Made by a program: the position numbers and the translations under genes. DNA of 64,000 nucleotides, from contig CALZDP010000001.1 of the NCBI GenBank assembly GCA_945638575.1, forward strand, positions 1 to 64,000. Direction: 5' to 3'. The stretch is from an uncultured Clostridia bacterium. Its GTDB lineage: Bacteria > Bacillota > Clostridia > Christensenellales > Borkfalkiaceae. Positions 1,646-3,181 of this stretch are shown piece by piece (position 1 is the stretch's first letter; each line of letters opens with the position of its first letter). Under the pieces are notes generated by a model, which ran no database searches, was not told the origin of the DNA, and saw only the letters and a list, made by a program, of their open reading frames with translations.

Positions 1646-1680
1646 TAAAATAAAAAGTGCGCCGACCGAAGCCAACGCAC
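1646..1680 (-). terminator. Intrinsic terminator inside the leader, just before the RBS
   Basis: On the minus strand a 10-bp stem (1671-1680 with 1657-1666, three G-U pairs) is capped by a UUCG tetraloop closed by C-G, and is followed by TTTTTATTTTAT. It lies between the promoter at 1863-1891 and the AGGAGG that precedes the ATG at 1632. Its position inside the leader makes it a candidate attenuator rather than an end-of-gene terminator. Confidence 0.75.
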
Positions 1681-1857
1681 AAAAACGCAAACTCCAATCG
1701 TCGCTAAACCAATCTAAATGAAAAATAAGGGAAACACCCGTACACTCTTTTAGTGGAATTTGCATTTTATCAAATTCTAAAAAAGAGTGTATTAAAAATA
1801 TGCCTCTCAAAAAAAAGAGATGCCCCTACAATTTTTCATTATTAAATTGGTTTAGCA
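1681..1857 (-). promoter_or_regulatory. Structured 5' leader RNA of the lipoprotein gene (riboswitch-like)
   Basis: Starting almost at the predicted transcript 5' end, 1846-1855 can pair perfectly with 1704-1713 (10 bp) and 1831-1839 with 1718-1726 (9 bp), forming a closing stem. The enclosed RNA has two hairpins: 1741-1751 with 1781-1791 (11 bp) extended by 1756-1762 with 1771-1777 (7 bp), and a smaller one around 1803-1826. The leader then runs into the UUCG terminator. I do not recognise it as a known riboswitch class. The stems are read directly from the sequence; a regulatory role is inference. Confidence 0.55.
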
Positions 1858-1862
1858 TAATC

Positions 1863-1891
1863 AGTATATCACTTTTCTAAATAAAACACAA
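1863..1891 (-). promoter_or_regulatory. Promoter of the LRR lipoprotein gene
   Basis: Minus strand: -35 TTGTGT (1886-1891), 17-bp spacer, -10 TATACT (1863-1868) with the extended TG motif one base upstream. The predicted start near 1856 gives a leader of about 220 nt. Confidence 0.7.
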
Positions 1892-2622: not shown

Positions 2623-2707
<85 letters not shown>

Positions 2708-2713
2708 GTTTAT

Positions 2714-2788
2714 TGGAGCTGGTGATAGGAGTCGAACCTACAACCTGCTGATTACAAATCAGCTGCTCTGCCATTGAGCCACACCAGC
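2714..2788 (-). tRNA. tRNA-Thr (TGT)
   Basis: 75-nt tRNA with encoded CCA. Acceptor GCTGGTG (2782-2788) pairs with 2718-2724; anticodon loop TTTGTAA gives TGT. Confidence 0.95.
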
Positions 2789-2805
2789 AATATTAGGTAG
2801 TAGGA

Positions 2806-2881
2806 TGGTGCCTCGGGGCGGAATCGAACCACCGACACGGGGATTTTCAGTCCCCTGCTCTACCGACTGAGCTACCGAGGC
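2806..2881 (-). tRNA. tRNA-Phe (GAA)
   Basis: 76-nt tRNA with encoded CCA. Acceptor GCCTCGG pairs with CCGAGGC; anticodon loop CTGAAAA gives GAA. Confidence 0.95.
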
Positions 2882-2921
2882 AAACTTGTAGCCTAATGCA
2901 AAACGCATTGGGCTACAAATA

Positions 2922-2998
2922 TGGCGACCCGGAAGGGACTCGAACCCTCGACCTCTAACGTGACAGGCTAGCGTTCTAACCAGCTGAACTACCGGGCC
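2922..2998 (-). tRNA. tRNA-Asp (GTC)
   Basis: 77-nt tRNA with encoded CCA. Acceptor GGCCCGG pairs with CCGGGTC through one G-U; anticodon loop CTGTCAC gives GTC. Confidence 0.95.
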
Positions 2999-3017
2999 AT
3001 ATAAGTATTTAATTGAA

Positions 3018-3094
3018 TGGTGGGCCTTCACGGACTCGAACCGCGGACCGATCGGTTATGAGCCGACTGCTCTAACCAACTGAGCTAAAGGCCC
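3018..3094 (-). tRNA. tRNA-Met (CAT), elongator type
   Basis: 77-nt tRNA with encoded CCA. Acceptor GGGCCTT pairs with AAGGCCC; anticodon loop CTCATAA gives CAT. The fully paired first acceptor base pair and GGGCC start suit elongator Met. A CAT tRNA modified to read Ile AUA cannot be fully excluded. Confidence 0.9.
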
Positions 3095-3105
3095 TTGTAT
3101 TAACA

Positions 3106-3181
3106 TGGTCGGGGTGACGAGACTCGAACTCACGACCTCATGGTCCCAAACCACGCGCGCTACCAACTGCGCCACACCCCG
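3106..3181 (-). tRNA. tRNA-Pro (TGG)
   Basis: 76-nt tRNA with encoded CCA. Acceptor CGGGGTG pairs with CACCCCG; anticodon loop TTTGGGA gives TGG. It is the first gene of the cluster behind the promoter at 3207-3235. Confidence 0.95.

Follow-up and report, generated by a model that had tools for sequence, protein, structure and literature searches.

A probable riboswitch-like transcription attenuator that appears to move as a promoter–leader cassette among Clostridia genes

The 64,000-nucleotide stretch of DNA analyzed here (the window), from an uncultured Clostridia bacterium, carries a palindromic element directly ahead of a BspA-type leucine-rich-repeat gene. Does this element regulate the gene, or is it a small mobile element that happens to lie there? 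The first-pass annotation had favored a riboswitch-like leader and had named terminal inverted repeats of a mobile element as the alternative; its observation on the leader is confirmed. Judging from sequence comparison, the element is quite probably a signal-responsive, riboswitch-like transcription attenuator of a class without an Rfam match, which would travel as a promoter–leader cassette. It also appears to contain a strand-exchange switch, which the first-pass annotation had overlooked.

All features of the locus lie on the minus strand. The BspA-type gene (positions 1–1632) runs off the contig start, and its product shows a lipoprotein-like N terminus and a match to PF13306 (E = 2e-76), in agreement with the BspA-family lipoprotein proposed before. 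The ATG start codon (1632–1630) is preceded by the ribosome binding site AGGAGG (1639–1644) and, further upstream, by an intrinsic terminator (1657–1680) with a 10-bp stem, a UUCG loop, and a U-rich tract reaching to ∼1647; read from the sequence, the terminator and AGGAGG follow each other in the order originally described. The promoter (1863–1891) consists of TTGTGT (1891–1886), a 17-nt spacer ending in TGA, and the −10 box TATACT (1868–1863), the latter 6 nt upstream of the RNA start that had been placed near 1856. Comparison of copies found in other genomes bears out both this promoter and the gene order. A −10 box is located 3–12 nt before the closing stem in 215 of the 218 family copies with enough sequence (58 of 216 for a control stretch 150 nt away), and in 192 of these 215 it stands exactly 6 or 7 nt before the stem, so that this stem, P1, probably begins at about +1.

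The leader RNA (1653–1856) is matched over its full length by our covariance model R1 with 160.7 bits, the window being among the 60 sequences of the model. At its inferred 5′ end, the RNA is closed by P1 (5′ strand 1842–1856, 3′ strand 1703–1717), followed by P2 (5′ strand 1831–1839, 3′ strand 1718–1726), whose sequence varies among copies. The closing stem reported earlier is therefore present on the minus strand, where the fold draws it as 15 bp plus 9 bp. Also present in this fold are the two other hairpins of the first-pass annotation, the two-part hairpin P4 (1741–1791) and a small hairpin near 1803–1826, which in the predicted fold is surrounded by a U-rich segment (together 1800–1826). 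The minus-strand fold has an energy of −74.8 kcal/mol (z = −7.5), and none of 200 dinucleotide shuffles is as stable. Because the element is palindromic, the plus strand folds equally unusually (−59.7 kcal/mol, z = −8.1); folding alone hence cannot assign the strand, which is given by promoter, terminator, and gene order.

New covariance models from homologues of the leader, which the first-pass annotation had suggested as a check, recover a large family. R1 was built from 60 copies and R2 from 47 short forms. R1 matched 59 of 297 genomes at the level of the order (E ≤ 0.001), 81 of 391 at that of the class (E ≤ 1e-4), and a single one, the own genome, among 299 drawn across the phylum; for R2, the tallies were 98 of the 391 class genomes and, of the 299, likewise none but the own genome. 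These tallies count the own genome and rest on 6–9 scored candidates per genome, so that copy numbers are lower bounds. The own genome possesses a second, diverged copy (G000:C7), after which no ORF above 25 amino acids was found. R2 recognizes both own-genome copies (E = 1.9e-12 and 1.1e-10), each of them a long form, and long and short forms thus constitute one family. By DNA search, 27 of 61 genomes, the own genome among them, matched at E ≤ 0.01, and a pattern scan of named genomes gave at least 117 stretches. Twelve genomes looked at singly, chosen as leader-rich except for the own genome, hold 2 to 18 matches each at E ≤ 0.01, a few of the weakest arising from the opposite strand of a palindromic copy; the maximum of 18 occurs in a genome of about 2.7 Mb. 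The 80 listed stretches of the pattern scan (L051–L130) come from metagenome-assembled genomes with titles such as Clostridia, Clostridiales, and Oscillospiraceae; the guts of ruminants, deer, and rabbits are the source of many. For the comparisons below, 263 model matches were reduced to 245 by removal of opposite-strand overlaps and to 225 copies by removal of duplicates.

The pattern scan also matched four viral contigs. Leader copies are found on virus-classed contigs from IMG/VR (L168, L169, L170, and L171) and on phage MT835503 (L271), where a weak DNA match proved to be a real copy (117 bits with R1). Phages may thus carry the leader module. A weak blastn match to a Bacillus subtilis plasmid is probably due to chance (14 bits with R1, E = 0.088).

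The putative switch is formed by three strands and the terminator. Strand 1 (GAATTTG, 1771–1777) and strand 2 (AAAATGCAAATTCC, 1755–1768) lie in P4b, the tip of P4, in which strand 2 provides the loop and the 3′ strand and its second half (CAAATTC, 1762–1756) pairs with strand 1. Strand 3 (GGAGTTTGCGTTTT, 1682–1695) is a 14-bp complement of the whole of strand 2. The first four bases of strand 3, GGAG, belong in addition to the 5′ arm of an antiterminator (CGATTGGAG, 1692–1700), whose 3′ arm (CTTCGGTCG, 1663–1671) is common to the terminator. In the antiterminator, this GGAG pairs with the CUUC of the terminator. Since GGAG is common to 2:3 and the antiterminator, the two pairings are mutually exclusive there. 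The lowest-energy fold of the whole leader in the window holds the antiterminator, not the terminator; the terminator hairpin alone amounts to −14.8 kcal/mol and the 2:3 duplex to −15.9 kcal/mol.

Comparison of the copies establishes these alternative helices, their covariation, and the segment common to them. The complementarity of strands 2 and 3 spans 14 positions in a row, and 98.3% of the cells in them are paired. Across the 60 aligned copies, the structure composed of P1, 2:3, and the terminator is paired in 97.9% of cells, and that composed of P1, P4b, and the antiterminator in 96.8%; none of 500 shuffles reached the pairing of either structure, and shifting the partners by 1–3 columns lowered it to 22–57%. 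The pattern scan demanded exact matches at positions within strand 3 and the 5′ arm of the antiterminator, whose invariance in the loci it returned is therefore partly imposed; the partner strands were left free. When the columns of this alignment (A3) were ranked by mutual information, with no structure as input, pairs from P1, the terminator, and the antiterminator took the top seven places. The evidence from covariation covers P1, P4b, 2:3, the antiterminator, and the terminator, P2 and the outer part of P4 being too variable to align.

The reading of the first-pass annotation would have been refuted by a lack of compensatory changes in homologues, but such changes are found in P1, 2:3, the antiterminator, and the terminator. 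The antiterminator columns 203–245 hold A-U (23), U-A (15), U-G (12), and G-C (5) among the 60 copies. A tree was computed after removal of the main-test columns (columns 14 and 189 were retained); on it, columns 203 and 245 changed jointly on 8 branches, 7 times to a standard pair (null mean 2.2, maximum 6). Joint changes occurred on 4 branches for the 2:3 columns 138–212, all to a pair (null maximum 2), and on 13 branches for the P1 columns 8–192 (null maximum 6). Coincident changes exceeded all 500 null draws for P1 (8–192, 3–197, and 14–189), 2:3 (138–212), the antiterminator (203–245), and the terminator (235–245). The terminator columns 233–247, with 6 coincident changes at a null maximum of 7, and three control column pairs did not rise above the 500 draws of this null. 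A base of the P1 3′ strand (column 192, window position 1710) also covaries with the base that varies in the 5′ arm of the antiterminator (column 203, position 1699), as though the two formed a pair, in 54 of 60 copies; with 6 coincident changes at a null maximum of 6, these columns likewise stay within the tree null, and the corresponding bases of the window, G and G, do not pair with each other. A 4-bp hairpin competing with P1 could account for it, as could clade effects.

The pairings also depend on the partners of each individual copy. We replaced partner strands by those of dissimilar copies in 206 of the 225 copies, the remaining 19 having no clear landmarks. The own partner surpassed the mean of the swapped partners in 206 of 206 copies for P1, 204 for the terminator, 174 for the antiterminator (weaker in short forms, 15 of 21, p = 0.024), and 146 for 2:3 (20 of 21 in short forms). 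The swap effect on 2:3 is small in long forms (114 of 185, p = 0.01) because 2:3 is nearly invariant there. Two control pairings showed no swap effect (90/206 and 120/206, p = 0.22 and 0.18). Of 206 copies, 158 fold the tail after P1, taken alone, as antiterminator and 47 as terminator, the second copy of the own genome being among the latter; with the post-P1 strand shuffled, the antiterminator is obtained in 2 of 206.

In short forms, strands 2 and 3 are replaced together, and changes on both sides are seen in 8 of 15 pairs. Examples are AAAAAUGCGUAC with GUACGCGUUUUU in L245 and AAAAAAUGCGGAA with UUCCGCAUUUUUU in L231. By eye, the antiterminator is also swapped as a unit in single short forms (ACAAAGC/GCUUUGU in L303, UUGGAG/CUCCAA in L307, and AUGAGC/GCUCAU in L239); in the MAFFT columns, the short-form antiterminator pairs poorly at three outer positions (28/47, 17/46, and 20/45). 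Similar to a riboswitch, the leader combines a structured 5′ domain, conserved by compensatory change in P1, P4b, and 2:3, with an expression platform of mutually exclusive structures that have the terminator 3′ arm and GGAG as common segments. The earlier description as riboswitch-like is thus supported in the sense of an attenuator, whose homologues keep the promoter, the closed domain, the antiterminator/terminator, and mostly the downstream gene.

We infer from this arrangement how the switch might work in the cell. Transcription would start at the foot of P1, and the RNA would fold into a closed domain with an apical hairpin carrying strand 2. Strand 3, right after P1, would then choose between two partners that exclude each other over GGAG. 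In the putative OFF state, strand 3 would pair with strand 2 as a pseudoknot across P1, and the terminator would form and stop transcription. In the putative ON state, strand 2 would be kept in its own hairpin (1:2), whereas strand 3 would pair with the terminator 3′ arm as antiterminator, allowing read-through into the gene. The assignment of 2:3 to OFF and 1:2 to ON follows from 2:3 covering the common GGAG. In the long form, the overlap of 2:3 with the antiterminator is limited to four bases, so that ∼10 bp of 2:3 might persist beside the antiterminator as a kissing pair, and the sign could then be reversed. In the short form, the conserved tracts of strand 1 (U), strand 2 (A), and strand 3 (U) might form a U·A-U triple helix inside the pseudoknot.

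The state would be picked by a signal acting on the closed domain, presumably a small signaling molecule or ion, with a protein as second guess and an RNA as a further candidate. According to a passage in a review on riboswitches that were once orphans (PMC7266159), every riboswitch class that senses a signaling molecule either was an orphan earlier or was uncovered from another class. We tentatively propose, as something short of an even bet, that all copies represent one sensing RNA class, distributed across gut Clostridia, for one signal, probably a signaling molecule; this class would move as a cassette and wire unrelated, recently gained surface and accessory genes into one regulon under RNA control.

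A protein could take the place of the small molecule by stabilizing 1:2 or 2:3. RNA-binding proteins such as LicT/BglG and PyrR act in this manner on their own targets, and a single factor of this type could act on a large number of unrelated genes. Strong conservation is seen for the As in the AAUA segment that follows P1 and for the strand 2 A-tract, and a four helix bundle gene of the 23S rRNA-intervening-sequence family lies upstream in 9 of 273 copies, which provides a lead only. However, among the downstream proteins and the one upstream gene that were scanned, no protein factor accompanies the great majority of copies, and we consider a protein-responsive attenuator unlikely.

The downstream genes argue for regulation in cis. 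A Shine–Dalgarno (SD)-led ORF of at least 30 amino acids begins within 70 nt downstream in 142 of 212 copies (median 22 nt) and within 260 nt in a further 54, whereas 16 have none by the criteria of our scripts. These last copies would suit a stand-alone small RNA that acts in trans and lies beside its neighbors incidentally, and a promoter, a structured RNA of ∼150–220 nt, and a strong terminator do form a complete unit; yet the ORFs of the 142 copies start a median of 22 nt past the terminator, and such an RNA would not need an antiterminator conserved by covariation, which makes it very unlikely. Lipoprotein-like products are encoded by 42 of 135 downstream genes and, elsewhere in these loci, by 32 of 611 genes, and a hydrophobic N terminus is found in 85 of 135 versus 111 of 611 (downstream products ≥60 amino acids or cut, background ≥100 amino acids; ORFs, lipoprotein signals, and hydrophobicity were called with simple scripts). 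In a Pfam scan covering 146 of the 177 listed downstream proteins, the commonest families are BspA leucine-rich repeats (18), LRR_8 (14), and zinc ribbons (8). The 225 distinct downstream ORFs, derived from 273 copies, scatter over 121 clusters, 97 of them single, so that no pathway can be named; given this diversity, we gave up looking to a common theme among the genes for the ligand.

One of these clusters, with 14 of the 225 ORFs, consists of small cysteine-rich proteins with a motif near ECCCDECDY, which is not present in every member. It is found after the leader in L211, L255, L220, L265, L086, and others, and two members that were tested gave no NCBIfam match.

The leader apparently combines the role of a regulator with that of a cassette that can be exchanged. 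We compared full-length leaders at different loci that are at least 85% identical, and 39 of 45 such pairs precede unrelated proteins (no similarity in blastp at E ≤ 1e-3); the pairs overlap in members and correspond to fewer independent events. Counted from the model match, the homology of a pair has its median start at −17, at the −10 box, and its end at +6, extending further upstream in a few pairs, to −400 at most. These sequences are best read as a promoter–leader unit exchanged among accessory genes that are unrelated and often encode exported proteins.

The same 39 of 45 pairs, with homology from the −10 box to +6 and thus ending at the ends of the element, are what a miniature mobile element would leave behind, its inverted-repeat stems serving transposition and its promoter and terminator being incidental cargo, and copies in series and near tRNA genes fit this picture as well. 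Its orientation to genes is, however, fixed: a same-strand gene start (SD-led ORF ≥80 amino acids) lies within 100 nt downstream in 121 of 182 copies, but on the opposite side in 12 of 182. Furthermore, compensatory changes keep alternative helices that an inserted palindrome would not need, and no transposase is present among the 25 listed of 75 Pfam families from the 146 downstream proteins. A mobile element as sole explanation was therefore rejected as improbable and is retained for the cassette behavior. Of the alternative raised in the first-pass annotation, the copies at unrelated loci stand, whereas its simple form fails on the fixed gene orientation and the switching complementarity within the stems.

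Two or three copies occur in series at several loci (L061, L157/L210, L262, L285, L286, and L287); in L061, the second copy has its own promoter. A search of 31 genomes with the stretch 1000–2420 of the window returned an occupied site of partial synteny (G045:C46), where a leader again follows the upstream gene seen in the window.

Among known systems, Rfam 15 returned only tRNAs at gathering score, in the window as well as in 17 loci with other copies, and at E ≤ 10 the matches to the leader are at chance level, far below gathering. The element is accordingly without a match to a class in Rfam 15; the first-pass annotation had likewise been unable to assign it to a known class. T-box leaders set an antiterminator against a terminator in 5′ leaders of Bacillota, and the element resembles them in this respect; in contrast, the listed downstream families have no theme of biosynthesis or aminoacyl-tRNA, and a T-box was rejected, with no T-box match at gathering score in the window and the 17 loci. 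The trp-type attenuator is a cascade of mutually exclusive helices 1:2, 2:3, and 3:4 with a terminator, and the element follows the same cascade, but it shows no sign of a leader peptide and its domain is closed by P1. Despite the shared strand logic, ribosome-dependent attenuation through a leader peptide was rejected as highly improbable, since SD-led ORFs of at least 8 codons start in 40 of 206 leaders as opposed to 143 of 206 reversed sequences, and AAAATGC, the motif holding the AUG of strand 2, is missing from 73 of 206 copies.

The element also resembles orphan riboswitch candidates whose platforms work by transcription attenuation, with which it has in common a closed multi-stem 5′ domain, a pseudoknot strand overlapping the antiterminator, an intrinsic terminator, and a ribosome binding site. 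It differs from them in the lack of an Rfam match, in its very mixed gene set, and in that promoter and leader appear to be one traveling unit. The leader is not described in the titles and beginnings of abstracts of the papers listed (preprints, most subscription papers, and supplements lay outside this search), and it is possibly an unnamed entry in a large motif screen. The kind of device, an attenuator, is known; the family and its exchange between unrelated genes appear to be new. If our reading as a signal-responsive attenuator is correct, the family would represent a global layer of RNA-based control in Clostridia known from metagenome-assembled genomes (by the 80 titles listed), many of them from animal guts. 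It would govern BspA-type surface proteins, lipoproteins, zinc-ribbon proteins, and small cysteine-rich proteins, and its signal would probably reveal a condition that these bacteria sense. Cassette-like exchange would be an unusual route for a gene to gain regulation.

Two features of the genomic setting recur. The four helix bundle gene (TIGR02436, PF05635) is found in the window at 2046–2387 on the minus strand, upstream of the leader, and genes with 43–69% identity to it lie 79–207 nt upstream on the same strand, giving 9 of 273 copies in total (beside the window L213, L203, L253, L244, L215, L173, L240, and L104). Finally, of the loci of at least 3 kb (219 at most), 36 have tRNA genes at a distance of up to 1 kb from the leader, in the window at 2623–3181. 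Of 53 such tRNAs, 51 are located upstream, 45 of these on the strand of the leader, a bias that is partly trivial because the gene fills the downstream side. The tRNA density falls from ∼0.14 per kb in the first kilobase from the leader to 0.03 at 1–4 kb, and this proximity suggests tRNA-associated hot spots of accessory genes.
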